36,365 bases of DNA from a virus: positions 1-36,365 of IMG/VR virus record IMGVR_UViG_3300044675_004175, one strand, 5' to 3'. Made by a program: the position numbers and the translations under genes. The notes beneath the pieces are model-generated. The model searched no databases. It was not told where the DNA came from and saw only the letters and a list, made by a program, of their open reading frames with translations. Positions 7,038 to 27,700 of the stretch are shown piece after piece; position 1 is the first letter of the stretch; each line of letters begins with the position of its first letter.

Positions 7038-7180
7038 TGATTGAAACAACTTTCCGTGAATATGATTGTCATGATGAAGATTCAGAGCATGATGATTATA
7101 TGAGTGCAGAGGATTATGATGTTCGTGAATATAATCGTAATGGATGGGATGAATTAAGATATGAAAGGCAAAGATTCTGA
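7037..7180 (+). CDS. Hypothetical acidic Tyr/Asp-rich protein, 47 aa
   Basis: ATG 7037 overlaps the previous TGA by one base. The product begins MIETTFREYDCHDEDSEHDD and continues YMSAEDYDVREYNRNGWDEL. It is highly acidic and Tyr-rich and ends in a basic RYERQRF, so it is likely disordered or partner-folded. The function is unknown. It closes the seven-gene chain and is followed by TCGTGAATATAA (7182-7193) and then a terminator. Confidence 0.55.
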   Translation: MIETTFREYDCHDEDSEHDDYMSAEDYDVREYNRNGWDELRYERQRF

Positions 7181-7197
7181 ATCGTGAATATAACACT

Positions 7198-7221
7198 GAG
7201 AGGATAACACCTCTCTTTTTT
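7198..7221 (+). terminator. Rho-independent terminator
   Basis: GAGAGG (7198-7203) pairs with CCTCTC (7210-7215) across ATAACA, followed by six T. It ends the 5961-7180 unit. The same GAGAGG/CCTCTC core recurs at 9951-9970. Confidence 0.85.
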
Positions 7222-7307
7222 ATTGTTTTTTAGTACAATATAACGTTAAAATGGTATAAAATTAATTAAAAATGTATTAAAAAACGTATATTGCCTTTCA
7301 AACTCTC

Positions 7308-7356
7308 TTGATACTTATTGTTATTAAAAGGTGATAATGATAAGAATTAGTATCAA
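7308..7356. repeat. Imperfect inverted repeat, AT-rich
   Basis: TTGATACT (7308-7315) is the complement of AGTATCAA (7349-7356). Flanking CTCTT and AAGAG (7357-7363) extend the pairing after a short bulge. It could serve as the terminator of the leftward RNA or as a protein-binding or origin-like site. Confidence 0.5.
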
Positions 7357-7363
7357 TTAAGAG

Positions 7364-7456
7364 GTGTTTATAGTCTTTTAAATGTCTCTGTGTGCCGATA
7401 CTTATGTGTTTTTAAATGTACACAGACCTTGTGTTTATAGTCTTTTAAATGTCTCT
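7364..7456. repeat. Exact 26-bp direct repeat (7364-7389 and 7431-7456)
   Basis: Both copies begin GTGTTTATAG and end AAATGTCTCT and are identical over 26 bases, spaced 67 bp start to start. A third, partial copy (GTGTTTTTAAATGT) lies near 7406. No gene covers them. The 7222-7576 interval holds only this repeat, the inverted repeat and the leftward promoter. Confidence 0.85.
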
Positions 7457-7478
7457 AGGAGTCGTTATCTTAGCGAAC

Positions 7479-7507
7479 ATTATACCCGCACTCCACCAAT
7501 TTGTCAA
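7479..7507 (-). promoter_or_regulatory. Perfect leftward sigma70 promoter
   Basis: On the minus strand TTGACA (7507-7502) is followed by 17 bases and TATAAT (7484-7479). Both hexamers are exact consensus. It is divergent from the rightward promoter at 7577-7605. Confidence 0.75.
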
Positions 7508-7576
7508 CGCCCCGTCATAAAATCCACACAAGTCCGCCAAAAATTACACCAGGACACCATAAATACGCCACAGACC

Positions 7577-7605
7577 TTGACATCCACGCCACAGCATCCT
7601 ACAAT
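7577..7605 (+). promoter_or_regulatory. Near-consensus rightward sigma70 promoter for 7633-7806
   Basis: TTGACA (7577-7582), 17 bases, TACAAT (7600-7605). It is 28 bases from the ATG at 7633. A CATAAATA late-like box also occurs upstream at 7558-7565. Confidence 0.75.
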
Positions 7606-7632
7606 AGTTTCAGAAACACCAGGAGCACACTT

Positions 7633-7806
7633 ATGTCGGTTGCATTTCAACAAGCACAGAAAGTTCGTTATCGCGTGACATTGGATCTTGAAGTTTTCAG
7701 TGATATGGATCCGCACCAGATTGATTGGGAAAAGTTATTCAAACTGGAACCTGCAGAGAGAGTATCAGCGTATGTTGAAGATTTGTCGTGTCCTGATAAG
7801 TGGTGA
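7633..7806 (+). CDS. Conserved small cyanophage protein, 57 aa
   Basis: ATG 7633 has AGGAG (7621-7625) upstream. The product begins MSVAFQQAQKVRYRVTLDLE and contains DPHQIDWEKLFKLEPAERVS, ending DLSCPDKW. I recall closely similar proteins in many cyanophages, where the phrase 'WEKLFKLEPAE' is conserved; no function is known. The near-consensus sigma70 promoter immediately upstream is the best rightward one in the window, suggesting strong early expression by the unmodified host polymerase. The gene stands alone between two non-coding blocks. Longer frames running through the promoter were rejected. Confidence 0.75.
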   Translation: MSVAFQQAQKVRYRVTLDLEVFSDMDPHQIDWEKLFKLEPAERVSAYVEDLSCPDKW

Positions 7807-7822
7807 TTTAACAAATAAGTTA

Positions 7823-8115
7823 TATAAATAAACTCATAGAAACAGTATAATTCTTATACTGAATCAAGTACAATTCTTTCTCAGAGAGCATCAACAGGCG
7901 GTTTACCCGATGAGAATAAGTCTTTCACAGTAGATATAAAGAATTCAATGCTATTTCAGAATCAGAATGATACCTAAGTTCCTATGAGTTTTGTTATATC
8001 AGACACCAGGAGTTTATCACTAGATTCTCCATTCGTCGCATGTATATGAGGTTTAAGTTTAACTAAAAACACTTAAGAATCCGAAAAAGCAGTGAACTTT
8101 TCGGAGGTTTTTTGC
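7823..8115 (+). ncRNA. Candidate structured RNA with late-type promoter and terminator
   Basis: TATAAATA (7823-7830) precedes a gene-free stretch that ends in a clear terminator (8081-8115). Within it are a perfect 8-bp hairpin CAGTATAA/TTATACTG (7843-7861) and a long-range complement AAACTCATAG (7830-7839) with CTATGAGTTT (7982-7991). A GGAG/CTCC hairpin lies near 8008-8030. No ORF with a plausible start exceeds about 30 codons. It resembles no riboswitch or tRNA I know. The TATAAATA could equally belong to nothing. Confidence 0.35.
8081..8115 (+). terminator. Rho-independent terminator in a gene-free region
   Basis: CCGAAAA (8081-8087) pairs with TTTTCGG (8098-8104), followed by AGG and a T6 run. 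No annotated gene ends nearby (the last stop is at 7806), which supports a transcribed RNA upstream. Confidence 0.75.
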
Positions 8116-8130
8116 TGTCTAGATTTATAA

Positions 8131-8234
8131 GAACTCTTTTTTCGTGAATAAGATTCTGCAGGTATCAGAGTTCGTTTGTGGCAGTAGAATTTCATGAAAA
8201 AGTAAAAGTATAAAGAACTCTTTTTTCGTGAATA
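8131..8234. repeat. 20-bp exact direct repeat (8131-8150 and 8215-8234)
   Basis: GAACTCTTTTTTCGTGAATA occurs twice, 84 bp apart, in the non-coding region 8116-8400. The core TCGTGAATA recurs in intergenic DNA elsewhere in the window, often beside terminators. Confidence 0.85.
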
Positions 8235-8323
8235 TAAAGTTTATAAGAACGCAGGAGAAGTGTCGATTGTTGTCGTCATCAGTCCTACATCAGACCTCGT
8301 TAAATTGTAAATTAAACACTCAT

Positions 8324-8380
8324 AGGTGTCTTTGCCTTTGACTCTTATATCATAAGGCATAGAGACGCTCCCAGGCACCT
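8324..8380. other. Potential RNA hairpin before the 8401 promoter
   Basis: Bases 8326-8338 (GTGTCTTTGCCTT) pair imperfectly with 8354-8366 (AAGGCATAGAGAC). AGGTG (8324-8328) and CACCT (8376-8380) may add an outer stem. It could terminate transcripts from the left or be the 3' part of an RNA; the strand is undetermined. Confidence 0.35.
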
Positions 8381-8400
8381 CTAGTGGACAGTTCTTTTAG

Positions 8401-8445
8401 TGGCACAAGGTATTGGCACTGGCGTCTTTTTCCTGTATTCTTAAA
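8401..8445 (+). promoter_or_regulatory. Box-type promoter for 8466-8681
   Basis: TGGCACA (8401-8407) and GGCACT (8415-8420) are tandem boxes 14 bp apart. The -10 TATTCT (8436-8441) starts 35 bp from the first box. Confidence 0.65.
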
Positions 8446-8465
8446 AGGTCAAAGAGATTCACCTC

Positions 8466-8681
8466 ATGATCCTCACTGATAAAGAACAGCAACTGATGAA
8501 ATCTATCATTGAAGGAATGGATGAACCGGGATGTGGTTGGTTGCATGAACTTAATCCTTTCGGTAGTGATAAAGTTTGTGCTGGTGTTCTGAGTGCATTG
8601 ATTCAAAAAGATCTTGTTCGTAGTGACCTCTACCAAGATCGTGATTGTGATGATTGTTATTGGATTGAACTTGTGATCTGA
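8466..8681 (+). CDS. Hypothetical small protein with winged-helix feel, 71 aa
   Basis: ATG 8466 follows the box-type promoter with leader GATTCACCTC. The product begins MILTDKEQQLMKSIIEGMDE; the middle contains DKVCAGVLSALIQKDLVRSD and the end CDDCYWIELVI. The helix, helix, then 'alternating strand' order (ALIQKDLVRSD followed by a short hairpin) resembles a winged-helix or MarR-like core, but it is very short and this is only suggestive. It stands alone in its unit, followed by a hairpin (8694-8722). Confidence 0.65.
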   Translation: MILTDKEQQLMKSIIEGMDEPGCGWLHELNPFGSDKVCAGVLSALIQKDLVRSDLYQDRDCDDCYWIELVI

Positions 8682-8693
8682 TTCTTGATACTT

Positions 8694-8722
8694 AAGGAGT
8701 TGTTTATACCAAGCAACTCCTT
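8694..8722 (+). terminator. Terminator hairpin of cassette A
   Basis: AAGGAGTTG (8694-8702) pairs with CAACTCCTT (8714-8722). It is homologous to the hairpin at 10913-10945. The U-tract is poor (ATTTGATTCTTT). Confidence 0.6.
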
Positions 8723-8731
8723 ATTTGATTC

Positions 8732-8808
8732 TTTATACTTAGTTAAATGTAAAGTATAAAACAAGGATTCTTATTTAATTCTTTATAGTGTTATTTCTTT
8801 GCAGGATG
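8732..8808 (-). repeat. Intergenic repeat cassette A with leftward leader element
   Basis: Bases 8732-8754 are an exact 23-bp copy of 10956-10978. The element CATCCTGC-AAAGAAATAACACTATAAAG (read on the minus strand, 8808-8781) is the most divergent member of the six-copy leader family. No good leftward -10 is visible 13-14 bases before it. The rest of 8809-8913 holds nothing I can identify. Confidence 0.6.
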
Positions 8809-8913
8809 AGTACCTTAGTTGTTGTCGCTGAGGTTTTCGCCTCTCCTTTGCTTGTGATCTTAGTATAGAGCATCTGAGAGGCAATGGAGAGTGTGAGTGT
8901 GCGGTTTGAGAAC

Positions 8914-8963
8914 TGGCACAAGGTGACGGCACAGCGCCAGAATCGGTGTATTCTTAATGAGTC
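8914..8963 (+). promoter_or_regulatory. Box-type promoter for 8980-9651
   Basis: TGGCACA (8914-8920) and GGCACA (8928-8933) are 14 bp apart. The -10 TATTCT (8949-8954) is 35 bp from the first box, with GAGTC at 8959-8963. It lies inside the upstream part of the long open frame and therefore decides the start of the next gene. Confidence 0.7.
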
Positions 8964-8979
8964 GTCAGGAATCAATCCG

Positions 8980-9651
8980 ATGCAAGTCGCTCTCACGATG
9001 GTCTCCAGCAACGTTAAGACTGGACCAATCCCAACTACTACTAGTGAGCGTTCATCGTGTTGGGAAGGATGCGCCTTTTATGATAAAGGTTGCTATGCTA
9101 AATCAGGTCCTCAAGCATTACATTGGCGTAAGGTATCTGAAGGCGAGCGTGGTCTTCCTTGGAATGAATTTGTATCGGCAATCCGTAAGATTGCAAAAGG
9201 TCAAATCTGGCGTCATAATGTAAGTGGAGACCTGCCACATAATGGTCTTGGTGACATTGAGGCAGATAAAACGCAACAGTTAGTGAATGCAAATCGTGGT
9301 CGTCGTGGTTATACTTATACCCATCATCCTTTGAATGATCATAACATTAACGTGATTCGTGAATGTAACTCTAAAGGTTTCACTGTTAATGCTAGCACAG
9401 AATCCGTAGAAGTGGCAGATAAAGTTATGTCAGAGCACGGTATTCCTGCCGTTGCTGTCGTGAATTCAGAAGAATCACGTCGATTCTTTAAGACTGAAAG
9501 TGGTCGTAAGGTTATTGTTTGTCCTGCAATGATTCATGATAGTGTTACCTGCGCCACTTGTGGTTTGTGTCAGAAAGCAGATCGTGAGTTTGTGATTGCT
9601 TTTCCTGCACATGGTACTGCTAAAAAGACTGTGAATAGCATTGTAGCATAA
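8980..9651 (+). CDS. Cys-rich phage protein of unknown function (DUF7227-like), 223 aa
   Basis: The open frame extends to an ATG at 8884, but the box-type promoter lies at 8914-8963, so ATG 8980 (CAGGA at 8966-8970) or ATG 8998 is the start. The protein shows TSERSSCWEGCAFYDKGCYA (Cys at about 27, 31 and 38), GQIWRHNVSGDLPHNG, RGRRGYTYTHHP and a C-terminal cluster CATCGLC (191-197). I recall this pattern from a phage family of unknown function, possibly DUF7227; the name is unverified. The two Cys clusters could bind zinc or an iron-sulphur cluster. The WRH, GDLP and TYTHHP motifs are probably active-site regions. It resembles in style the phage Gp37/Gp68 group. Confidence 0.75.
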   Translation: MQVALTMVSSNVKTGPIPTTTSERSSCWEGCAFYDKGCYAKSGPQALHWRKVSEGERGLPWNEFVSAIRKIAKGQIWRHNVSGDLPHNGLGDIEADKTQQLVNANRGRRGYTYTHHPLNDHNINVIRECNSKGFTVNASTESVEVADKVMSEHGIPAVAVVNSEESRRFFKTESGRKVIVCPAMIHDSVTCATCGLCQKADREFVIAFPAHGTAKKTVNSIVA

Positions 9652-9715
9652 TACTTCATATAGTCCTGAGTATGACTCTAAACTGCTCAACTGTTCCTTA
9701 ATTCTTTTCATCATC

Positions 9716-9925
9716 ATGCCTAAGTTCACCAGTTCCGTGATCACTGCTATCAGCGACGTTGTTAACAATGAGGTTACAATCGAGTTCAATGGCAAACCTT
9801 ACACCTATATGGTTTCTGACATTGAAGCATGGGAGAATGACCTCAACGATGTTATCGAAGAAGGTGAATCTGTTGGTAGTTTTGTGAATAAAGCAGTTCG
9901 TGCTAATGTACTGCAACTCGTCTGA
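9716..9925 (+). CDS. KTSC-like small protein, 69 aa
   Basis: ATG 9716 gives a 69-residue protein. The order FTSSVITAISDVVNNEVTIE, then FNGKPYTYMVSD, then GESVGSFVNKAVRAN fits a KTSC-like layout: a Ser-Ser start, two strands with an aromatic YTY, then a helix with a Ser-Phe/Asn motif. Similar proteins are frequent in cyanophages. The role is unknown. It shares the fold class, not obvious sequence identity, with 4575-4862. It is co-directional with the Cys-rich gene 64 bases upstream and is followed by a terminator. Confidence 0.7.
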   Translation: MPKFTSSVITAISDVVNNEVTIEFNGKPYTYMVSDIEAWENDLNDVIEEGESVGSFVNKAVRANVLQLV

Positions 9926-9948
9926 TTCTTAGATCTTCGTGAATAGAA

Positions 9949-9977
9949 AAGAGAGGTAACATTGCCTCTCTTTTTTT
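9949..9977 (+). terminator. Rho-independent terminator
   Basis: GAGAGG (9951-9956) pairs with CCTCTC (9965-9970), followed by seven T. It closes 8980-9925. A TTCGTGAATA copy lies just upstream (9936-9945). Confidence 0.85.
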
Positions 9978-10083
9978 ATACTTTTTGTTTTTTCGTGAAT
10001 GAATTCGTGAATGAGTCCTAATACCTGCAGGAAAGTAGAATTGCAGATAAATGTGAAAGTATAGTTAATTCTTTTTTTGAGTT

Positions 10084-10128
10084 GTTTATACTATTATTTT
10101 CGCGCAGGGTGAGTGCAAGACCATTATA
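10084..10128 (-). promoter_or_regulatory. Leftward promoter/leader element D
   Basis: On the minus strand TATAAT (10128-10123) is followed after exactly 14 bases by CCTGCGC and the AT tract GAAAATAATAGTATAAAC. The -35 is poor. The 9978-10083 stretch upstream on the plus strand holds two more TTCGTGAAT copies (9993 and 10005 area) and no gene. Confidence 0.5.
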
Positions 10129-10173
10129 GTCATTCTGAGAGGTAGTGGTTGATATTGTGGACAGTCTGATAGG

Positions 10174-10224
10174 TGGCACAAGGTAATGGCACAAACACAG
10201 AATCTGTGCAATTATATAAGAGTC
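10174..10224 (+). promoter_or_regulatory. Box-type promoter for 10241-10453
   Basis: TGGCACA (10174-10180) and GGCACA (10188-10193) are tandem boxes. The -10 is AATTAT/TATATA around 10210-10218 and GAGTC is at 10220-10224. The distance to the -10 is 36 bp. Confidence 0.6.
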
Positions 10225-10240
10225 GAAATCAATTCTTCTC

Positions 10241-10453
10241 ATGACTGTTAAGGAACGTCTGATTAAAGAAGGTTATACTTTTCAACCTGAATGTGGTTGC
10301 TGGATTACTGATGATTCCAAATTCTTGTATTCTTATTTACAGGATCCTGAAAGTGTAGGTGATAATCATATTTGGAATTTTGAGAAGGTAGATCAGGATG
10401 GTAATCTGGTTGAACAACATCTCTTTACAGAGTACAGTTTCATGAATTACTGA
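10241..10453 (+). CDS. Hypothetical acidic protein, 70 aa
   Basis: ATG 10241 follows the box-type promoter. The 70-residue product begins MTVKERLIKEGYTFQPECGC and continues WITDDSKFLYSYLQDPESVG, with a beta-rich aromatic C-terminal part ending EYSFMNY. The first segment suggests a helix and hairpin fold; no motif identifies a function. It is the only gene of its unit, bounded by the promoter and a 12-bp terminator stem (10466-10500). A leftward transcript from element C would run into its 3' end if it passed that stem. Confidence 0.7.
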   Translation: MTVKERLIKEGYTFQPECGCWITDDSKFLYSYLQDPESVGDNHIWNFEKVDQDGNLVEQHLFTEYSFMNY

Positions 10454-10465
10454 TAGAAACTGTGA

Positions 10466-10500
10466 GAGGACTTCGTGAATATAAACCTCACGAAGTCCTC
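10466..10500 (+). terminator. Perfect 12-bp terminator hairpin
   Basis: GAGGACTTCGTG (10466-10477) pairs perfectly with CACGAAGTCCTC (10489-10500) around an 11-base loop. The TCGTGAATATAA repeat forms part of the left arm and loop. TTTACATTT follows. Confidence 0.75.
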
Positions 10501-10556
10501 TTTACATTTAACTAAGTATAAAGAATTAATTAGTGATTCTTAGTTAATTCTTTATA
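10500..10556. repeat. Inverted copy of cassette repeat and 13-bp inverted repeat
   Basis: Bases 10500-10522 are the exact reverse complement of the 23-bp repeats at 8732 and 10956. TATAAAGAATTAA (10517-10529) is a perfect inverted repeat of 10544-10556. The orientation flip shows that these cassettes have been rearranged. Confidence 0.8.
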
Positions 10557-10630
10557 GTGTTATTTTTGCGCAGGGTGCGCTTGCGTTAATTATAGCAGTT
10601 CTAGATCTCTTGTCAAGCGTTTTTCACAAA
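10550..10630 (-). promoter_or_regulatory. Leftward promoter/leader element C (near-perfect sigma70)
   Basis: On the minus strand TTGACA (10616-10611), 16 bases, and TATAAT (10594-10589) with an extended TGC. Fourteen bases later is CCTGCGC and an AT tract. TTTGTGAAAAACGC precedes the -35 and is shared with elements E and F. Confidence 0.7.
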
Positions 10631-10662
10631 CTGACACATTAGCATTGCTGATCGTTTGATGC

Positions 10663-10691
10663 TTGACAGGATCCAGGATCTGCTGTAACTT
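10663..10691 (+). promoter_or_regulatory. Rightward sigma70-like promoter for 10716-10892
   Basis: TTGACA (10663-10668), 17 bases, TAACTT (10686-10691), then AAGTGAGTC as in the box-type promoters. It has no TGGCACA boxes. It diverges from element C. Confidence 0.6.
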
Positions 10692-10715
10692 AAGTGAGTC
10701 GAAAGGTTCTTCACC

Positions 10716-10892
10716 ATGCACCTCCGCACAATTGCCGATCTGCTGATCCAAACACTGACTGAAGATCAGGCGACTGATCTTATCCTTGCCATGCACAATA
10801 CTGAAGACGGTAGTGAAGCACTCCGCCGCATCGTTCGTGATGACATTGGCGGCGCAGGAGATCTTATTACTAATGCACTCTGGTTTCGCTGA
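10716..10892 (+). CDS. Small protein, paralogue of 4304-4504 (58 aa)
   Basis: ATG 10716 to TGA 10890-10892. The product begins MHLRTIADLLIQTLTEDQAT and ends with SEALRRIVRDDIGGAGDLIT and NALWFR. The second half matches the C-terminal half of the 4304-4504 product, with only conservative changes. Both are short, acidic and helical, both stand alone behind a promoter, and both use GC-rich codons, which suggests duplication or transfer of a gene-plus-promoter cassette. The function is unknown. GAAAGG (10701-10706) is a weak ribosome site. Confidence 0.75.
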   Translation: MHLRTIADLLIQTLTEDQATDLILAMHNTEDGSEALRRIVRDDIGGAGDLITNALWFR

Positions 10893-10912
10893 TTAAGTAT
10901 AAAGATCTCTTG

Positions 10913-10945
10913 AGGAGTTGCTGATTTTTATAGTCAGCAACTCCT
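10913..10945 (+). terminator. 12-bp terminator hairpin of cassette B
   Basis: AGGAGTTGCTGA (10913-10924) pairs with TCAGCAACTCCT (10934-10945) around a 9-base loop. It is homologous to the hairpin at 8694. The following U-tract is weak. Confidence 0.65.
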
Positions 10946-10955
10946 TAGTTTATTG

Positions 10956-11037
10956 TTTATACTTAGTTAAATGTAAAGAATCAACTAAGGATTGCTATTT
11001 AATTCTTTATACTATTATTTCAGCGCAGGATGAGTGA
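10956..11037 (-). repeat. Intergenic repeat cassette B with leftward leader element
   Basis: The exact 23-bp repeat at 10956-10978 is followed by the leader element (11004-11032; minus-strand CATCCTGCGC then TGAAATAATAGTATAAAG). A leftward -10 TACAAA lies 13 bases before it; the -35 is not recognisable. It aligns with cassette A over about 80 bases. 11038-11147 holds nothing else I can identify. Confidence 0.65.
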
Positions 11038-11147
11038 CCTGTTTTGTATCATCACGCCGCCCGCGTTCCTTTGCTTGTCTTCTACAGTCTACCATGCCAG
11101 GCGCTCAGATCGCCAGGATCAGAGACAAAAAAAACCAGTTCGCTAAC

Positions 11148-11198
11148 TGGCACAAGGTAACTAGAAAGGCGCTGGATCTGTGCAATTATATAAAGGTC
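11148..11198 (+). promoter_or_regulatory. Box-type promoter for 11215-11448
   Basis: TGGCACA (11148-11154) lies 36 bp before AATTAT (11184-11189), with TATATAAAGGTC following. The second box is degenerate (ACTAGAA). The -10 region matches that at 10210 almost exactly. Confidence 0.55.
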
Positions 11199-11214
11199 GA
11201 GGTTGATTCATTCA

Positions 11215-11448
11215 ATGTTCAGCAAATTCGCCACTCCTGAAGACTTCCAACGTTGGGAGGATCACGCTAAAGTTTGCGACGCATATACGCTGAAATATAT
11301 TATCAAAGACTGTCAACAGGCAGAAAAGGCAATGCGTGGATTTGATCCAATTCGCGAGGGTTACTATATTGATCAGGCGTGCACTTACGGCATGGAATTA
11401 ACACGTAGGAACCGCGAACTGCCTGCTGGTTTGCGTCACCGAATCTAG
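11215..11448 (+). CDS. Conserved small cyanophage-type protein, 77 aa
   Basis: I chose ATG 11215 because in-frame codons upstream belong to the promoter leader. The product begins MFSKFATPEDFQRWEDHAKV, contains YTLKYIIKDCQQAEKAMRGF and REGYYIDQACTYGMEL, and ends in a basic tail (RRNRELPAGLRHRI). It is all-helical, with a basic end. Very similar sequences occur in cyanophages as I remember them, without assigned function. The positive tail could bind nucleic acid or acidic partners. The next gene starts 58 bases downstream. Confidence 0.75.
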   Translation: MFSKFATPEDFQRWEDHAKVCDAYTLKYIIKDCQQAEKAMRGFDPIREGYYIDQACTYGMELTRRNRELPAGLRHRI

Positions 11449-11506
11449 GTGATTTGACCTGAGTTATGTCACTAAACTGACTCACCAGTTCTTTACACTT
11501 TTCGTC

Positions 11507-11686
11507 ATGTTTGAGATCTTTGCATCTATCACTGATGAGTTTGGTTCAAGGAGTGGCACAACTGGACGTGGTTTTTATAGCGAATCCTCAGCATATAAAG
11601 AGATGAAGATAATGCAAAAGAGCGAACCTGATTGTGAGTTTTATGTGGAGTATGTTCCTGCTGAGGATGAATGGAACTGTTACTGA
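11507..11686 (+). CDS. Hypothetical protein, 59 aa
   Basis: ATG 11507 to TGA 11684-11686. The product begins MFEIFASITDEFGSRSGTTG, then RGFYSESSAYKEMKIMQKSE, and ends AEDEWNCY. The organisation suggests a strand, a Gly/Ser-rich loop with an Arg, a helix and a final strand (EFYVEYV). It is unrecognised. It is probably co-transcribed with 11215-11448, with no promoter visible between them, and is closed by a terminator. An upstream T-rich stretch (TTCTTTACACTTTTCGTC) replaces a normal ribosome site, as also seen before 5542 and 9716. Confidence 0.6.
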   Translation: MFEIFASITDEFGSRSGTTGRGFYSESSAYKEMKIMQKSEPDCEFYVEYVPAEDEWNCY

Positions 11687-11710
11687 CTAAGTAACACAAA
11701 CTCGTAAAAG

Positions 11711-11736
11711 GAGTTAGTTATACTAACTCTTTTTTT
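11711..11736 (+). terminator. Rho-independent terminator
   Basis: GAGTTAGT (11711-11718) pairs with ACTAACTC (11722-11729) around a 3-base loop, followed by seven T. It may also stop the leftward RNA from element E. Confidence 0.85.
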
Positions 11737-11741
11737 CTATT

Positions 11742-11822
11742 TGTTATACTATTATTTCAGCGCAGGATGCCTCTAGAGGTATTCTACACGATCTAGATTC
11801 TGTGTCAAGTGTTTTTCACAAA
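11742..11822 (-). promoter_or_regulatory. Leftward promoter/leader element E
   Basis: On the minus strand TTGACA (11808-11803), 16 bases, TAGAAT (11786-11781), 14 bases, CCTGCGC then TGAAATAATAGTATAAC. TTTGTGAAAAACAC precedes the -35. A predicted RNA of about 65 bases would end at the 11711-11736 hairpin. Confidence 0.65.
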
Positions 11823-11875
11823 TGTTCATATAAAAAATCTTATGTGACAGATAAGCAAAACTGATTGTAAAATGC

Positions 11876-11904
11876 TTGACATGGTACGCGATCGGTGCAA
11901 TTAT
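11876..11904 (+). promoter_or_regulatory. Rightward sigma70 promoter for 11930-12241
   Basis: TTGACA (11876-11881), 17 bases, AATTAT (11899-11904), within GTGCAATTATA as at 10210 and 11184. No TGGCACA boxes are present. Confidence 0.55.
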
Positions 11905-11929
11905 ACCTTTGTTGAAACGGATTCGACCG

Positions 11930-12241
11930 ATGCGCCAAATCGAACGCCAGATGAATCAAGCGATCCAAAATGAGATCGACTGGAAGAAAGACAACACTAA
12001 AGTTGTCTATGAAGAAGGCGTATCTCTTGTCTATTTGTATGACAATCTCATCGCAATGGTTGGTGATACGTGGTTGGAACTGTTCGATGCTGGACATCAA
12101 ACTAACACCACAAAATCGCGCCTGAACGCTATTCTTGAAAAGCATGGCAATGGTGAGAGAATCTATCAGAAAGATTACCAGTGGTTCCTGTCAACTAAGG
12201 AAGGAGGTGTTGAGTTTAATGGCACTGCCAGACTTGACTGA
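11930..12241 (+). CDS. Conserved phage/cyanobacterial protein, 103 aa
   Basis: The open frame begins at an ATG (11876) inside the promoter, so ATG 11930 is the likely start. The product begins MRQIERQMNQAIQNEIDWKK, followed by NTKVVYEEGVSLVYLYDNLI, GHQTNTTKSRLNAILEKHGN and IYQKDYQWFLST. The pattern 'NTxV..., Y-D-N-x-I-A, H-x-TNTTKSRLNA, QK-x-x-W' recurs in cyanophage and cyanobacterial proteins of unknown function. The conserved TNTTKSRLNA suggests a ligand- or nucleic-acid-binding helix start. It is soluble and is followed 70 bases later by another small gene. Confidence 0.75.
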   Translation: MRQIERQMNQAIQNEIDWKKDNTKVVYEEGVSLVYLYDNLIAMVGDTWLELFDAGHQTNTTKSRLNAILEKHGNGERIYQKDYQWFLSTKEGGVEFNGTARLD

Positions 12242-12311
12242 TTAAGTTAACCTAACTGTCCTGAGCAAGATATAAAACTGCTCACGCAATCCTTCCTCTT
12301 AAGTATCACCA

Positions 12312-12476
12312 ATGCCTGACGCAGTTTCCTATCCTGAAGCGTTCAATTTCGCAGTTTGCTGTAACTTAGGTGAGGAATTCATTGATACTTACGGCACTGC
12401 AATTTCATGGACTAACTGTAAAGTAGATGTCGGAGAGTTAATGAACTGGATTGAGCAAATGTTCAACGATAACTAA
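12312..12476 (+). CDS. Hypothetical protein, 54 aa
   Basis: ATG 12312 to TAA 12474-12476. The product begins MPDAVSYPEAFNFAVCCNLG, then EEFIDTYGTAISWTNCKVDV, and ends WIEQMFNDN. It has three Cys (two adjacent at 16-17), is acidic, and has no membrane helix. It is unrecognised. It is likely co-transcribed with 11930-12241; the intergenic 70 bases have no promoter I can support. A GC-rich hairpin (12487-12517) follows. Confidence 0.6.
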   Translation: MPDAVSYPEAFNFAVCCNLGEEFIDTYGTAISWTNCKVDVGELMNWIEQMFNDN

Positions 12477-12486
12477 CACAAACTCA

Positions 12487-12517
12487 TGAGTGCGCTAATT
12501 AACACCTAGCGCACTCA
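12487..12517 (+). terminator. 11-bp hairpin after 12312-12476
   Basis: TGAGTGCGCTA (12487-12497) pairs with TAGCGCACTCA (12507-12517) around 9 bases. CAGTTCTTT follows, so the U-tract is weak. Confidence 0.6.
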
Positions 12518-12547
12518 CAGTTCTTTATACTAACTGTGCGCTCTTAA

Positions 12548-12627
12548 ATGATACTGATATTTTCGCGCAGGGTGCGCCTGTTGGTAGTCTACTCGATCCG
12601 GAGAATACGTCAACCGGTTTTCACAAA
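12548..12627 (-). promoter_or_regulatory. Leftward promoter/leader element F
   Basis: On the minus strand TTGACG (12613-12608), 16 bases, TAGACT (12591-12586), 14 bases, CCTGCGC then GAAAATATCAGTAT. TTTGTGAAAACCGG precedes the -35. It is the rightmost copy of the family. Confidence 0.6.
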
Positions 12628-12683
12628 AAAACACATTCGGATCGCTTATCAGTCAGATCAGCAGAACTGATCAGTCACCGCAG

Positions 12684-12720
12684 TGAGAATCCGCCAGATC
12701 TGCTGTAGGATGGCGGAGCA
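12684..12720 (+). promoter_or_regulatory. Weak rightward promoter for 12736-13488
   Basis: The -10 TAGGAT (12706-12711) is followed by GGCGGAGCA in the position of GAGTC of other promoters here. The -35 (TGAGAA, 12684-12689) is poor. Inverted repeats CTGATCAG near 12648-12675 may bind a regulator. Confidence 0.35.
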
Positions 12721-12735
12721 ATCCGCAATGGATCC

Positions 12736-13488
12736 ATGCCTGCCACCACCACCGCACGCCACAATGAGACCGACGCGCTGCTAGAGCGCGTGCTGCGCGG
12801 TCTGCATGGCACAAATCCTCAGGCAGCAGCAAACCTAGAGTATGATCTCGCGCAGTGTGAAACTGAGCGTAAAGTGCAGCAGTTTAGTGTCACAACTAAG
12901 CGTGACGGTTTGATTAACTTTACCTCAGATCTTACTGATGCTGAGGTTCTGCAATCCTTACGTTCGCAACGTTCTAGTTTCGCACAAGATCTTGCTGCTA
13001 AGTTTCACAAACTATCACCTGCTCAGTATGCTTGGTCGCATAAGTTGGCAGTTGATCATAACGCTAAGCAACAGAATGTTGCCAAGTTCGATGATACTCA
13101 GGTATCGCAGTTTGAGGCACTGTTTAATGCTTTCGAGGCAGCAAAAGCAAAAGGTGCTAAGCGTCTGACGCTGCGATTTGACGGCGTTAATGTGAAACCA
13201 AACCGTGATCTTAGTGCTTTGTGGATTACATCACAGACTGAAAAGGAGGAAGGTAACTATGGTTTGCAACCTAAGTACCTTGGCAAAGTGACACGTATCG
13301 GCATGGATTCTCGCCTCTCCGATGATGTTAAAGAGGTGATCATGTCAGCGTCTAAAGATCCTCTCACCGCTGCAATCCGCTACGGTAAGGTATCAGGTGA
13401 GTGTTCATGTTGCGGTCGTGAATTAACCGATCCTCAGTCAATTGAGCGTGGCATCGGTCCTATCTGCGCCACTAAGTTCGGATGGTGA
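12736..13488 (+). CDS. DUF6011-like zinc-finger protein, 250 aa
   Basis: ATG 12736 begins MPATTTARHNETDALLERVL. The first two thirds are mostly helical (including FEALFNAFEAAKAKGAKRLT). A beta-rich segment follows (LRFDGVNVKPNRDLSALWIT), and the last 28 residues are CSCCGRELTDPQSIERGIGP then ICATKFGW. This Cys cluster (about 223, 226 and 244) plus 'RGIGPIC' is the hallmark I associate with DUF6011, a presumed zinc-binding domain common in phages and actinobacterial proteins. Nucleic-acid binding is likely but unproven. The first about 120 bases are strikingly GC-rich compared with the surroundings. It is the last gene of the cassette-type array. Confidence 0.78.
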   Translation: MPATTTARHNETDALLERVLRGLHGTNPQAAANLEYDLAQCETERKVQQFSVTTKRDGLINFTSDLTDAEVLQSLRSQRSSFAQDLAAKFHKLSPAQYAWSHKLAVDHNAKQQNVAKFDDTQVSQFEALFNAFEAAKAKGAKRLTLRFDGVNVKPNRDLSALWITSQTEKEEGNYGLQPKYLGKVTRIGMDSRLSDDVKEVIMSASKDPLTAAIRYGKVSGECSCCGRELTDPQSIERGIGPICATKFGW

Positions 13489-13501
13489 TATAACTAACCG
13501 T

Positions 13502-13530
13502 GCGGACACTAAGTATAATTTAGTGTCCGC
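13502..13530 (+). terminator. 11-bp hairpin after 12736-13488
   Basis: GCGGACACTAA (13502-13512) pairs with TTAGTGTCCGC (13520-13530). There is no clear U-tract, so it may work as a processing or Rho-type stop. 13531-13776 holds no gene. Confidence 0.6.
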
Positions 13531-13578
13531 CGTCAATTATATCATTAGAAAGATGTTTCGTGTATTATAATTAACGTG

Positions 13579-13624
13579 TAATCGTGAATTGACAGTTATT
13601 GTTTATAGTGATAATCGTGAATTG
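13579..13624. repeat. 13-bp direct repeat of the TCGTGAAT family
   Basis: TAATCGTGAATTG occurs at 13579-13591 and 13612-13624. TTGACA (13589-13594) overlaps the first copy and is 17 bases from TAATCG in the second, a possible weak rightward promoter. The flanking GTTAT/ATAGTGA bases are also repeated. Confidence 0.6.
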
Positions 13625-18708: not shown

Positions 18709-21700
18709 ATGGCAGATACAAGAATTAAAATTGGTTCAATCGTACAAAATCAACTTCCCGATTTTGTACTAGAAGAATATCCTCTTGTTAGTGAATTCCT
18801 TAAGGAGTATTACAACTCTGTAGAAGGTCAAGGATCAACACTTGATATTCTTCAAAATATTGATCAATATTTAAAAGTTGATGAACTTTATAAATCAACA
18901 TTTGCCAGAACAATTACTGTAAAACCACAATCTCCACAAACTTTCTTTGAAATTAGTGGTGGTTATTCGGTAAATGATCTTATTGTCTTAAAAAATGGCA
19001 CTAAATTACTGAAAGATACTGACTATTTTGCTACAGATGGATCTTCAGTAATACTAGTTACTCCTGCTGTTCCCGGTGATGTTTTAGAGTTTGTTGTAGA
19101 ATCTCCATCTTCAACTATTTTGACAAGTGATGTTGAATTTGTAGACACTACGATTAACGTCGCATCTACATATGGATTTCCCGATACCAATGGAATTATC
19201 CAAATTGATTCGGAAATCATACTTTATTCATCAAAAACTTCTACTTCCTTCAAAGATTGTACTAGAGGGTTTAGCGGTATAACTTCTTATAGAGCAAGTA
19301 ATCAACCAGATCAACTCGTATTTTCAACATCTGAAATTGCAGAACATACCTCAAAAACAACTGTTGCAAACTTAAGTTCTTTATTCTTAAAAGAATTTTT
19401 AACAAAAATAAAATCACAATTAGTTCCTGGATTTGAAAATAGAACGCTTGCAGAAGGTCTGGATGAAAGAAATTTTATTAAAAATGCAAAGAGTTTTTAT
19501 TCATCAAAAGGAACTGATGATTCCTACAAATTACTTTTCAAGGCATTATTTGGACAGGAAGTAAGTGTAATTAAGCCAAGAGATTATTTACTCAAACCAT
19601 CTGATGCTCAATATAGAGTTGTTAGAGATTTGGTTGTTGAGTCTATTTCTGGAGATCCAATGGATCTTGAGAATAGGACTTTATATCAAGACCAAGTTGG
19701 AGACTATAATAAGGCTTATGGATCTGTTACTAAAGTTGAGAAAATTCAAAGATCTGGAAGAACCTTTTATGTCTTAAGTCTTGACTATGATTATAATAAA
19801 GATCTTACTGTTAGTGGATCTATTTACGGAAACTTTTCAATACATCCGTCTACAAAAGTAATTGCAGGAGTATCTACTAGTAGCACTGTTATTGATGCTG
19901 ATTCTACTATTGGATTTCCCTCAAATGGACAATTAGATTTTAATGTAAATGGAATTGATTATACTATTTCATATTTCAACAAAAATACCACTCAATTTTA
20001 CATTACATCATCACCTTCTATTTCTATTCCAACAGGAACTGATCTAAAATTAAATCAGTATGCTTATGCTAATGTTGGTGTTTCAACTGTAAAGGTTAGA
20101 ATAACTGGTGTTCTATCTGAAGTCGATTATGACTCAAGAAACACATTAATGAAAAAAGGCGACTCACTGAGTGCGGTTTCTTTAGGATATAATCCAAAAG
20201 GTATATTAGCAAATAATTGGATTTTTAATCTTGCTACAAAGTATAACGTCAAAACTATTAGCGGACCTAATTCTTCTAATCTAATAACAAATGTTTTTAC
20301 TTACGAAGTAACTACTTACGATCCACATTCATTTTCACTTGGCGATAATTTAAGATTAATAAATCCAAATGGCGATAAAGATAATTATAAAGTTGTAAGT
20401 GTTAGTAATGAATATTCGATTGTAGTAGAAGGAGTAAAGATTAATAATCTTACTCTGAAGTATGTAATTGAGAGGATTTTGAAAAAACCAAAATTCACTA
20501 ATTACACAGATGTCAATTCATACTCTGCTAATATTCAAAATGTCTATTTAAACAATGAAGACGAAATATATGTCACATCCAATTCATTGCCAAATTATTT
20601 GGACGAAGATGTAAATACAAAGAATACTAATGTTATTTTCTCTGGAATTTTTAATGGAGAAACTTTAGATTTAAGTTCTGGAAATCCAACCAATTTACAT
20701 GGATTTATCACTGGTGATGCTATTGTTTACAGTAGAAATGCTTTTAATCCAGATGAATACTTGAATATTTCTGAAAAAACTTATTTTGTAAAAAGAGTAG
20801 ATAATACTACAATAAAAATTGCAAGCAGTAAAACGGATTTATATAAAAATAAATTTGTAACTGTATCTGGAACTGCAAAAAATAATATTTTTAAAAGATT
20901 AAAATTTAATATATCACTGCTATCACAGCAAGGTTATATAAAAAAAATATCAAAACCTGTTTCTGCAGATGTAGTATCAGAGACTCCAACAGGTCCAGTT
21001 GGAATATTTGTGAATGGTGTAGAAGCTTATAGTTATAAATCTGCAGATAAAGTTTTTTATGGTGGAATTCAATCCATAAATGTCATTGGTGGCGGAGAAA
21101 ATTATGATGTAATTAACACACCTACTGTATTGGTAGAAGATAGTGTTGGTTATGGTGCATCTGCTTTTGCTCACGTTGTCGGAAGATTAGAAAAAATAGA
21201 TGTAATAGATGGTGGATTTGATTATCTTGAAGATCCAATTATAACCATAACAGGTGGAAATGGATATGGAGCATATGCTAAACCTAATATGACTTCATTT
21301 AGGCATAGTGTATCATTCAATTCAATTCAAAGTTCTGGATTTGTTAATCTAACTACTAATACAATTGGTTTTTCATCTTATCATAAATTTAGAGATTATG
21401 AAAGAGTTACATATCTAACTGAGGGACAAACTGGAGTTGGCGGATTATCAACAAATGCACAGTATCATGTTTCTGTTCAAGATGCATATAATGTTAGGTT
21501 GCATAAAACTTTAGATGATGCTGTTTCTGGTATAAACACAGTAGATTTAACTTCTTATGGTGTTGGAATTCATCTAATAGAATCCACACTATCAAAGAGA
21601 AAAATATCAAATGTTAGTGTATTGAATTTAGGTTCTGGATATATTAATAAAAAAATTTCTTGCACCATCTCCGGAATTCACACTTCATCAAATACTATTA

Positions 21701-24700
21701 AAATAATTGATCACGGTTATAAAACTGGAGAAATTGTTGTATATAATTCGACAGGTTCTGCAGTTGGCGGATTATCAAATAATCAATCATATTATATTAC
21801 TGCAGTAAATAAAGATGAATTCAAATTATCTCAAGTTGGAATTGCTACTACAAATAAAGATTTTTATTTTAAAACCAAACAGTTTATAAATCTGACTTCG
21901 GTAGGATCTTCATACCATACATTTAACTACCCCAACATAGTTGTAAGTGTATCTGGAAAAATTGGCGTATCTACACTAACTGGACAAGATTTTAGTGCTA
22001 AACTACAACCAAGTTTTAAAGGAGAAATTAGCAACATCTTTATTAAAGATTCTGGTGTTGGATATGGGTCTTCTGAAATCATTAATTACGAAAGACAACC
22101 AAAAATTACTTTGGGTATTGGATCAGGAGCTCAACTTTCACCCGTACTTAATGGAGGAAGAATAACAGAAGTTATAGTTCTCAATAGTGGTAATAATTAT
22201 ACTTCCGCACCAAAAATTGAAGTTTTGGGAATAGGAACCGGTGCAGTTTTAACTCCTATTGTAAATTCTGGTAAAATTGTTGAAGTAAAGGTTGTTAATG
22301 GCGGAGTCGGATTTAATACTACGGGAACTTTCTTAAATATAGTTCCTTCTGGAAATGGATTCTCACACGAAGTAAAAATAAAATCTTGGACTATTAACAC
22401 TGTAGAAAGATATTTAAATGATGAACAAATTGTGGATGATGATGGTGTAGTTGAGGTCTCTTCATATACTGTAAGTGGTTCACAATATTGTCATTTATAT
22501 GCACCAAGAAAGTTAAGAAGAAGTGTATTTGGTATTGATTATGTAAATGGGAACAAAGTTTATGTACCAGATTTAAAATTAGTAAACAATAGAGAGGTAG
22601 TTTCTACCACACACTCACCTATAATTGGATGGGCATACGATGGAAATCCAATTTACGGACCATATGGTTATAGCGAAAAAACAGGAGGATCTGTAAGAGA
22701 ACTTACATCTGGATATATTTCATTACCTTCTAGTGATAGACCAGATCCAATTTCTACTACAGGACAAAGAATATATCCAGAAGGATTTTTTGTTGAAGAT
22801 TATCAATATAATGCAAGTGGAGATTTAGATGAGCATAATGGAAGATTTTGTGTAACACCAGAGTATCCAAACGGAACTTATGCATATTTTACTACAATTA
22901 ATAATGGATTAACAGAAACTGCCGGTGTCTTCAGGAATTACAAAAAACCAGTTTTCCCTTACATAGTTGGTAATACTTTTAAATCTACTCCAATTGATGT
23001 AAATTATGATAGAAACATAAACCAAAATAATTTTAATTATACAGAATCTGGAATTTGGAGGAACACTAAACCATACAATCTAAAAAGCAATAACTCTGGA
23101 TATGATTTCGTATTTGATCCATTAAAAGTTAGAAAACCAGTAGTTACTGTAAGATCAACTTCTGTTGGACAACTATCTAATGTTGGAGTTGTTACTGGAG
23201 GTTCTGGATATAAAGTAGGAGATACTATCAATTTTAATAATACTAATTCTGGTGGATTCAATGCTTACGGACAAGTATCGTTTGTAAAAGGAAAAGAAAT
23301 AAAATCAATTAGTTTTGCTTCTACCTACACACAAGGAGTTGAATTTTATCCATATAATAATGGAAATAAACTTGTAGGATTTTCTTCATTACCACATAGT
23401 TTTATAAGCAATGATATTGTTTCAATATCTGGTTTAAGCACTTCTGTTAAGATTTTTAATTCGTTTTTTGTAGTTGGAGTTAATACTCACACTTTAGTTC
23501 TATCAAAAGCAGTAGGAAATTCTACATCTACCGGAATTGTCACTTATTTTGATATAAATGGATCTTTAGACTTCTCATATATTAGAGAAAATGACGTTTA
23601 TAAAGTTGAAAATGAAAAGGTTAAAGTTCTTTCTGTAGATGAACTTTCCTCTAGAATTAAGGTTTTAAGAGGATATGATTCAACTGTAGGAGTTTCTCAT
23701 ACAGCATCTACGGTTTTATATGAACAAACAAGAAAATTTACCATAGGATTTAGAAATAATAACAGCAATTTTAACTTTAATTTTAATAGAGAACTATATT
23801 TTAATCCAACAGAGTCACTCAGTCTTGGTACGACTTCTGGAGTGGGAATCGGATCAACTTTATATTTTTCAAATCCAGGTGCTGGAATCACTAATATTTT
23901 TGTTCCGACTAAAACAATATATCTACAATCACATTCATTAAACACTGGAGATGAGTTAATTTACTCTAGTAATGGAGGATCTCCATTCTTTGTTTCTGAT
24001 GATGGTGCTTCAAGTTTCCAATTACTTGATAATCAAGTAATTTATGTTGCAAAAGTATCTGATGATTTAATCGGTATTTCTACAAATAAAGTTGGATTAG
24101 GATCAACAGGATCATTTGTAGGAATAAACAGTAGTATCTTAACATCAACGGTTTATTTTACAAATGTAGGATCTGGTGTTAATCACAGTTTTAAGACAAA
24201 TTACTCCAATGTTCTAACTGGAGAAGTTTTAAGAAACACAGTTACTGTTGCCACGGCTTCAACTCATGGATTAGAAAGAGGTGATAGTATTTTTATTGAT
24301 TCTCTTCCAGGAATTACTACCAATGTAGTAATTAAATATAATGATGAAAACAAAAGACTTCTTGTTAACCCAAGATCTTTCACTGCATCCGCAGTAAATT
24401 TATCAGACAATAAGATATACATTGAAAATCATGAGTATACTACAGGACAAAAAGTAGTTTATAGTGCGACAACTTCAATTGGAGGTTTGGAAAATGATAA
24501 AATTTATTATGTTGTGAGATATAATAAAGATTACATTAAATTATCTTCAAGTTATTACAATGCGACTAAAGAAGTTCCAGAAATTATAGATTTTACGAGT
24601 GCTTCTGAAGGATCTATTTCATTAGTCAATCCTAGTATTCCTATTATTCCCAATCAAACAATAAATTTTGATCTATCAGATAGATCACTTTCCTTTACAA

Positions 24701-27700
24701 AGAATGCTAATTTATATTCAGCATTTGATTTTGTAATCTATTCCAATTCTAACTTTACTAAGGTTTTTGATAAAATTGAAGGGTCTTCTAATTTTAATGT
24801 AATAAAAACAGGAAAAATTGGTATTGATTCTACTTCTTCTGTCAAATTAACTACCTCTGGCGTAGAGACAGATTTGTACTATCGTTTGGTTCCTGTTGAT
24901 TTGTTCAACAACTCAACGGTTAAAAAGGAAATTATAATAGACGATGAGAATGTAGATTCTAATAACACATTAAAACTAACAAGAAGTTCATACTCTGGTT
25001 TTCATAATGTAGTTGGAGTTGGACAAACGACTTTCACATTCAATATAATTGATTATCCAGAAAAAACATCCTACACAAGTTCTGATGGACTTTTTGAATA
25101 TTTTACAGACTCTAAAACAGCAATTGGTGCAATTAGTGAAATTGATTTATTGTCCGGCGGTAAAAATTATCAGTCTTTACCCGGAATAACTTCAGTATTT
25201 TCAGAGATTGGAAGAGATGCAATTTTAAATCCAAACACTAGTTCAATTGGAAACATTAATCGAATTGACATTGATGATATTGGATTTGATTATCCATCAG
25301 ATATTACTCTGAGTCCATCTTCCAAACTACCTCAAGTATTAAAAGTTAAACCACTTTCCACTTTTGATAACATCGGCGTTTCTTCCGTTGGAATTAACTA
25401 CACATTATCTCCAAATTTAGTAGTTATTGATTCAGTTACAAATAAAGTCGTTACTGATGTTGATTTGAAATTTAATATAAAAACAAAAGAAGTTGATATT
25501 ATAAAAAATACCGATGGAATTAATAATGCAACACCACGTATTGTGCCTATTAATAACTCAAATGGAGTATCCATTGACAATGTAACATTTAACAATTCCA
25601 CAAAAGATGTAACTATAGAACTTGGTGTAAACTATAGTTTTGGTCAGACTTTTCCATTTAATGTTGGCGATAGAGTTCTGGTTGAAAATGTAAGTGTTGG
25701 CATAGCAACAACTGCAAAGGGATATAACTCAAAGAATTACGATTATGCATTATTTACATTAACTTCAGTAAGTCCACAATATGGAGGATCTGGAGCTTCT
25801 ATTACATATAATCTTTCAAATTACTTATCTGGATCAGAAATTCCCGGAACATTTAATGCAGAAAATTCTGCAGGCATCGTTGTTCCTGAAAAATACTTTC
25901 CAGTTTTTAATCCTGTATTGAAACCAGGTGCATTTATAGTAGGTGAAAAGGTTACTAGCGAATCTTATTCTGGAACTGTATTGGAGTGGAATTCTGACAC
26001 AGAACAGCTTAAAGTTTCTTCTTCAGATTCATTTGATCAAGGTAAATTTATTAGAGGAGAAACTTCAAACGCCAAAGGAACTATTGGAGATGTGCAAGAT
26101 TTTAATGCTGTTTATTTAATAGGCCCATCTGCAGTAGTGAACAAGGGGTGGAATAAAGAAACTGGATTCTTAAATAATGCACTACAAGTAACTTCAGATA
26201 ATAATTATTATCAGTATTTTTCATATTCTATTAAATCGAAAGTTGATTATGAAACTTGGAATGAATCTATTGGTAATTTAAACCACACAGTTGGTTTCAA
26301 AAAATTTGGGGACTTGGAAATTGAGTCTATTGATGCATCTTTTACGGGAATATCTACTGCACAAAACGAAGGAAGTTTTATTGGCATATCAGATTTAATT
26401 CAAGAAATAGATCTAAATTGTATTAATGATTTTGATCTTGCTAGAGAAAAAACCATAAAAATTTCTGATAGTTATATTTCAAATGAAATTATTCTCAATA
26501 CAGTCTCTCTCCAAGATGAATTCCAATCACTTGGAAATAGAGTTTTAATGATTGATGATTTCAGTGATCAGTTTTCAAATGTTCCTGCAGAAAACAACTA
26601 TGCAAATGTTGATACCTTTAGACTATCTGATATAAGATCTAAAAAATATGTAACTTATGTAAGAGACAAAAGATTTACTGGTCTGAGGCAGGTCTATCTA
26701 GTTTCATTATTACATGATGGACTAGAAGGTTATTTGAGTCAATATGCAAGAGTTGAAACTAATAGAGATTTAGGATCTTTTGATTTTTCTATTTTTGGAT
26801 CTGAAGGAACTTTAAGATTTTATCCATTGAACTTCTTAGTTAATGATTATGATATTAGTGTGATGTCTTATGGAATTACTGATATTATTTCTGGAATTGG
26901 AAGTACATCTCTTGGAAATATTGTTGAATTAAAATCGTCCACTGCGACCATACCATCAGGAACTTCTTCACAAACAACTATTGTTGGTATTGGATCAACA
27001 TATAGAGCATCTAAAGTATTAGTAGAACTTTCGTCCACAAACGGAACATATTATGAATTTAACGAGTTGACTCTTATTCATGATGGAAATAATGTAAGCA
27101 TTCTTGAATATGGACAACTTTCAAACGAAAGTAGAGTTAGATATGTTGGAGATGGAATAGGTTCTTACACCGCTTATATTTCTGGATCCAATATAAACTT
27201 AGATTTTACTCCAAATGTTGGATTAGGAACAACATATATTGCCAATACAGTTAGAGTTTCTGTAGCAAGCACTATAGGAACTAATACGGGATCATTGACA
27301 TTTAATACCGGTCAAGTCCAGTCCAGTTATGTTTCAATATCATCGTCTCCCACACCAACACAAAATAAAATTTCAACTTATAGTTTGGATCATTCTGGAG
27401 CATATTATTTTGTAGTAGTTGAGGACAAAACAAATAATACATATCAAGCATCAGAGATTACAGTTGTTGATGATGATACTGATGCATATCTTGCTGAGTT
27501 TGGTATAGTTGAGTCTTCCTCTGGACTAGGTACAATGGGAGTTGGTGTTGGTGCTACAGGAACCAGTTTGTATTTTACACCAAATCCAAATATAAATGTT
27601 GATGTTAGAGTTTATCAGCACGCTATGCGCGTTGTTGATGTAGATAATTCTTTTGAATTCTATAGTTTGGAAAATGCAAGAATTGATTCCAAGTTTACAA

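Follow-up and report, generated by a model that had tools for sequence, protein, structure and literature searches.

The window analysed here is the whole of the 36,365-base virus record IMGVR_UViG_3300044675_004175, which encodes T4-like baseplate wedge proteins and is closest, among phage records, to cyanomyoviruses that infect Synechococcus and Prochlorococcus. A series of its intergenic regions is arranged as cassettes in which a gene is followed by a plus-strand terminator, a short repeated core, a leftward promoter, a rightward promoter and then the next gene, with the named genes of the region all on the plus strand, as a preliminary description of this DNA had stated. That description had also reported six minus-strand copies of the core, CCTGC(GC) followed by an AT tract, and all six (A to F) were located in the window. 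The six-copy element is real and beyond chance: allowing up to three mismatches, TTATTTNNGCGCAGG has 17 matches in the window against 6.9 expected, and 0 of 100 shuffles reach 17. Below we set out the evidence that these cassettes probably carry small noncoding RNA genes, which form a multi-copy family distributed among the intergenic cassettes of cyanomyoviruses.

A profile search, together with inspection of the copies that have no promoter 14 nucleotides (nt) before CCTGC (for example A and D in the window), revealed that CCTGC/AAATA forms the 3' tail of a longer element of ~72 nt, present at more than 100 places on related cyanomyovirus contigs; a further scan added some 30 copies of this longer type. 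The predicted RNA opens with a purine-rich 5' end, followed by a hairpin of five base pairs whose loop is G-rich and by a second, weaker stem; its tail, with the consensus CNAC-N4-CCUGC-NAUR-AAAUAAU, is unpaired. The two sides of the hairpin change together between copies (GGUGC/GCACU, GGGCA/UGCCU, AGAUCU/AGAUCU, GCGT/ACGC), and the loop is often GGGGUA-like. RNAalifold predicts the same hairpin unaided from a plain MAFFT alignment of 19 copies, in which all hairpin cells are paired and two-sided changes occur in four of the five pairs. A covariance model built from this 19-copy structure (R2) returned 119 matches in 94 records at E ≤ 0.01; across 106 distinct sequences, 98.2% of hairpin cells are paired and the whole-structure covariation score is 0.435, compared with 0.144 for shuffled and at most 0.107 for slid controls. 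Read leftward, 76 of the 505 paired hairpin cells hold a G-U pair; on the opposite strand these would become A-C, so it is the leftward strand that would form the RNA. The conserved structure with compensatory changes that would be looked for in a small noncoding RNA is present in these alignments.

Read against this model, the window contains three full-length copies (A, D and a seventh, diverged copy absent from the preliminary description, here called copy 0), the other four (B, C, E and F) being shortened (Table 1). The shortened copies have no hairpin, and their promoter directly precedes the tail, with the -10 box 14 nt ahead of CCTGC in every case. C, E and F, tidy as they look, are shortened forms, while A and D, whose promoters had seemed incomplete, are full-length, with a -10 box ~57 nt upstream of CCTGC. 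Four boxes at exactly 14 nt had been claimed earlier, and four were found, in B, C, E and F rather than in C, D, E and F; the TTGACA or TTGACG with a 16-base spacer in C, E and F was recovered by the promoter scan, and the sequence that these three share upstream, TTTGTGAAAA, was found again. For copy 0 the promoter is uncertain, being either TTTAAT near the start of the copy or a box farther upstream.

The leftward promoters are supported by comparison with related viruses. Scans of public viral contigs with a core pattern that left the promoter out recovered the core in relatives, and the shortened type was compared over 44 distinct cores from 14 loci of close relatives, the window included. 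TANNNT stands exactly 14 nt before CCTGC in 33 of the 44 (0.76 expected per offset), and 24 of these 33 copies have a TTGAC- or TTTACA-type -35 box at a spacing of 16-17 nt. The letters of the -10 box vary (TAGACT, TAGAAT, TATAAT, TATACT) around an invariant T1, A2, A4 and T6, and because these positions stay fixed while the others change, the box resembles a functional -10. The column profile across the cores peaks at the promoter boxes, CCTGC and AAATA and is lower in between. Of 97 full-length copies, 57 carry a TANNNT whose end lies precisely 3 nt ahead of the RNA model; shuffles give 7 at most. Boxes of sigma70 type at -10 and -35, spaced by 16-18 nt, occur in C, E, F and most shortened relatives; the -35 box is missing from copy B, where TATAAT is preceded by GTGG/CCAC repeats, and from palindrome-type copies. 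A palindrome-like site, GTGCCA...AACTGTCC or ...TGGCAC, accompanies 38 of 96 copies of the RNA on their upstream side (shuffle mean 0.07), mostly 50-54 nt from the RNA start, which is where a class II activator would be expected to sit. The comparison of copies in relatives that the preliminary description had suggested therefore shows a -10/-35 spacing that is fixed while the flanking bases vary, and with the covariation of the hairpin in the leftward sense it upholds the proposed leftward promoter and RNA; what had been missed is the larger ~72-nt element. At the level of comparative sequence, the RNA family, its promoter, strand, orientation and copy number are established.

Table 1. Features of the intergenic cassettes, with matching copies in phage isolates. 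Coordinates are those of the window unless an isolate is named; CCTGC is given from its first base on the minus strand.
Feature	Coordinates	Strand	CCTGC	Basis and remarks
Full-length RNA, copy 0	8240-8311	minus		Covariance model R2, E = 1.5e-8, filters off; stem and AAATA tail degenerate
Full-length RNA, copy A	8790-8858	minus	8805-8801	R2, E = 0.0025; stem GAGG/CCTC read directly
Full-length RNA, copy D	11014-11081	minus	11029-11025	R2, E = 1.5e-5; stem ACGC/GCGT
Shortened copy B, predicted 5' portion of the leftward transcript	10086-10116	minus	10108-10104	Core and fixed -10 distance; putative transcription start 7 nt after -10
Shortened copy C, predicted 5' portion of the leftward transcript	10552-10582	minus	10574-10570	Core and fixed -10 distance
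Shortened copy E, predicted 5' portion of the leftward transcript	11744-11774	minus	11766-11762	Core and fixed -10 distance
Shortened copy F, predicted 5' portion of the leftward transcript	12549-12579	minus	12571-12567	Core and fixed -10 distance
-10 box TATACT, copy A	8862-8867	minus		Sequence; same offset to RNA start as in 57/97 copies
-10 box TATAAT, copy B	10123-10128	minus		Fixed -10 distance to core; no TTGACA
Promoter TTGACA-16-TATAAT, copy C	10616-10589	minus		Promoter scan, 12/12; conserved in relatives
-10 box TAGACT, copy D	11086-11091	minus		Sequence
Promoter TTGACA-16-TAGAAT, copy E	11808-11781	minus		Promoter scan, 11/12
Promoter TTGACG-16-TAGACT, copy F	12613-12586	minus		Promoter scan, 9/12
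Rightward promoter of next gene, TTGACA-17-TAACTT	10663-10691	plus		Read from sequence; back to back with copy C promoter
Rightward promoter of next gene, TTGACA-17-AATTAT	11876-11904	plus		Promoter scan; cassette E; TG before -10
Terminator hairpin of gene left of copy E	11706-11734	plus		T-run on plus strand
Similar terminator hairpin	8693-8723	plus		T-run on plus strand
Similar terminator hairpin	9945-9976	plus		T-run on plus strand
Similar terminator hairpin	10910-10948	plus		T-run on plus strand
GTGGACAGT...GGTGGCACA element	10157-10180			Separates the leftward promoter of cassette B from the rightward one; reverse complement of relatives' GTGCCA...TGTCC site
GTGGACAGT...GGTGGCACA element, second site	8384-8407			
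Isolate copy, S-SRM01	90136-90208	minus		No annotated feature there
Isolate copy, S-SRM01	88584-88658	minus		No annotated feature there
Isolate copy, DSL-LC03	82227-82298	minus		E = 1.1e-14; no annotated feature there

The RNA unit usually faces away from the promoter of the next gene, so that the two promoters diverge and the RNA is antisense to both neighbours; by crude gene calls this applies to 59 of 89 full-length copies, and 77 of the 89 head towards a gene to which they are antisense. The region has 13 terminator-like sites where 4.7 are expected. Of 28 gene hairpins, 16 are followed within 8 nt by at least five T on the gene strand, and one on the leftward strand. With the T-runs mostly on the gene strand the hairpins look like gene terminators, and the earlier claim that the leftward RNA ends at the hairpin of the preceding gene is not supported. 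The AU-rich AAAUAAU tail could, at a guess, be a processing site.

This arrangement would suit a local role, in which polymerase from the leftward promoter mainly enters the upstream gene at its 3' end and either blocks read-through or makes an RNA that pairs there, keeping each small gene independent. Besides the orientation of the 77 copies, the leftward strand lacks an intrinsic terminator, and cyanobacteria are described in the abstract of PMC13289151 as having no Rho, so that transcripts may run on. We nevertheless consider such a role unlikely, given that it does not account for the covarying hairpin or the invariant CCTGC/AAATA tail, nor for the copies that in some relatives are co-oriented with the next gene (L101 7816+, L099 565+, L088 7808+) or the two that follow one another in L101 (7351 and 7218). 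The apparent shuffling of cassettes among viruses, the persistence of the core in copies without a hairpin and the palindrome-like sites close by would all be compatible with an element that works as DNA, with an incidental promoter and a core that serves for binding, for recombination or as a cassette boundary. This reading is improbable, however: the -10 boxes keep a fixed spacing, and the hairpin covaries, with G-U pairs tolerated in a single sense.

A riboswitch-like 5' leader of an mRNA is a still poorer candidate. A plus-strand copy does lie upstream of a DUF6011-family gene (homologous to that at 12736-13488 of the window) in L099, L101, L088 and L097, but most copies have no gene downstream on the same strand, and in the tandem cases the gene appears by eye to have its own promoter after the RNA. 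That a plus-strand feature such as a gene terminator, a protein site or a small reading frame merely mimics a leftward promoter is hardly credible, as the plus-strand terminators adjoin the core but the core lies beyond the T-run, the G-U pairs suit the leftward strand and the -10 boxes hold their position relative to the leftward RNA. Two other candidates were examined by eye and set aside: a small peptide encoded at the tail (no start codon is conserved, and several copies, such as L101 2800 and 548, are interrupted by in-frame stops) and a late promoter of T4 type within the AT tract (whose letters mismatch TATAAATA).

The RNA family is not catalogued in Rfam, which is no proof of its absence from the literature. 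In Rfam 15 no family reached the gathering score at the RNA loci, and with E up to 10 there were just unrelated weak matches in L203, L190, L132 and L193. When full-length copies were compared with phage isolates by BLASTN, they matched Synechococcus phages S-SRM01 and DSL-LC03; a shortened copy had no match among the isolates. Six isolates were first searched whole, and of these DSL-LC03 was the only positive, with no copy in DSL-LC02, S-CREM1, S-B43, S-SZBM1 or S-WAM1. Whole searched records with a match contain 1 to 4 copies, and the richest single locus, L101, about ten. Each of two scans returned at least 120 rows, unrelated matches included, and the family looks large.

In layout, the cassettes resemble the promoter(early)-stem-loop (PeSL) cassettes of T4-type phages as these are described second-hand in PMC4503421, where a stem-loop terminator and a promoter of early type stand between small unrelated genes, a pattern that recurs along the genome and has apparently been shuffled among relatives. 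In the window a stem-loop terminator follows the upstream gene (8693, 9945, 10910 and 11706), and a putatively early sigma70-type promoter in the gene direction was found by scan for cassette E and by eye for the others; the cassettes do, however, hold more than these two parts, namely the leftward promoter and the structured RNA. PeSLs are not known to hold more than a terminator and a promoter in the gene direction, whereas the window's cassettes add an outward promoter and a structured RNA, and are thus PeSL-like cassettes that additionally carry an RNA family absent from Rfam. Arbiol et al. 2010 and Comeau et al. 2014 are reportedly the source papers on PeSL cassettes.

Small structured RNAs have also been described in the genomes of T4-like cyanophages, and the manA, wcaG, glnA (glutamine riboswitch), PhotoRC-II, CfrI and abiF RNAs resemble the present family in being small structured RNAs of cyanomyoviruses (PMC9964418, PMC2864571). 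Known cyanophage RNAs such as manA, wcaG and glnA are present in Rfam, and their models do not match these loci. The manA, wcaG and glnA RNAs are cis-regulatory leaders and CfrI is antisense to psbA; the RNA with the CCUGC tail differs in being multi-copy and mostly without a downstream gene. The cyanobacterial small RNAs Yfr1 and Yfr2-5, which have an unpaired conserved stretch and several loci per genome, are similar in both respects but differ in sequence and structure, and the new loci have no Rfam match to them.

The cassettes share further recurrent parts. A near-palindrome, ACATTAGCATTGCTGATC / ACATTCGGATCGCTTATC, lies between the back-to-back promoters of C and F (10636-10653 and 12633-12650), with similar sequences in relatives, and an AT-rich palindromic block, TTCTTTATACTTAGTTAAATGTAAAGAA, lies between core and terminator at 8722-8767, 10499-10554 and 10942-10991, occurring in both orientations across cassettes and relatives as though its centre could invert. 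A conserved plus-strand block, AATACCTGCAGGAGAATAGAATTGCAGATAAATGTGAAAGTATA, stands to the left of copy-B-type cassettes (window 10018-10066; L083 136, L089 460, L090 4106, L091 4415, L024 2828). The 5' leaders of the rightward mRNAs contain a sequence near GGUCGAAAGGGAUUCAACCCAUG, upstream of the window starts at 10241, 10716 and 11217 and also in L006 and L092, with a possible small hairpin immediately before the start codon, and TCGTGAATAT / TCGTGAAT recurs at many intergenic sites on the plus strand from 7131 to 13620. Farther along, a single open reading frame of 4164 amino acids (18709-31203) lies between the baseplate wedge genes, in the place occupied in relatives by very large baseplate wedge initiator genes.

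In the mechanism we propose, an intact unit would consist of the ~72-nt RNA preceded by a -10 box of sigma70 type, the -35 box often being replaced by a palindrome-like site. In the lineage of the window some copies would have lost the hairpin, leaving a TTGACA- or palindrome-type promoter 14 nt before CCTGC, so that the transcript would start ~8 nt before the retained tail. Host polymerase would transcribe the RNA early in infection. With less confidence, we suggest that the tail is the working part, acting in trans on an RNA or protein common to all copies; it is favoured as the active part because it is all that the shortened copies retain. Activity of the tail in trans is tentatively preferred here to a purely local antisense or insulating role, which we rate as unlikely. 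It is quite possible, if less likely than not, that this is a phage-specific family of trans-acting small RNAs, with 1 to about ten copies per genome and a dedicated palindromic regulatory site, through which aquatic cyanomyoviruses reprogramme a host or phage target by means of the CCUGC/AAAUA tail. Function is the weakest step of the mechanism.

Several results weigh against this account. As the shortened copies are without the structured part, not every copy can act through the hairpin. In predicted duplex energy with the mRNA leaders of the window itself, the tails did not clearly outdo shuffled tails (z from -2.7 to 1.6 over 63 pairs), and a pseudoknot between the G-rich loop and the CCUGC tail, sought by eye, fails because the loop changes (AGAA, AGAGA and CGAAAA in near relatives) while the tail stays the same. 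The second stem has little covariation, with 80% of its cells paired in the 19 copies and 73% in the 106 distinct sequences. Alignment A3 was fitted to the model structure, as alignment A2 was not, and the first MAFFT alignment, of 55 copies, yielded no consensus structure because its stems were out of register; the first covariance model (R1), built on that misaligned set, was structureless and was discarded. Finally, near relatives have no intrinsic terminator downstream on the RNA strand, so that a discrete RNA of ~75-120 nt is not guaranteed.

That a ~72-nt RNA, strongly covarying and equipped with its own promoter, recurs amid small unknown genes would point to a shared function overlooked by annotation centred on genes. 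With isolate S-SRM01 and its host, the RNA family can be tested directly.

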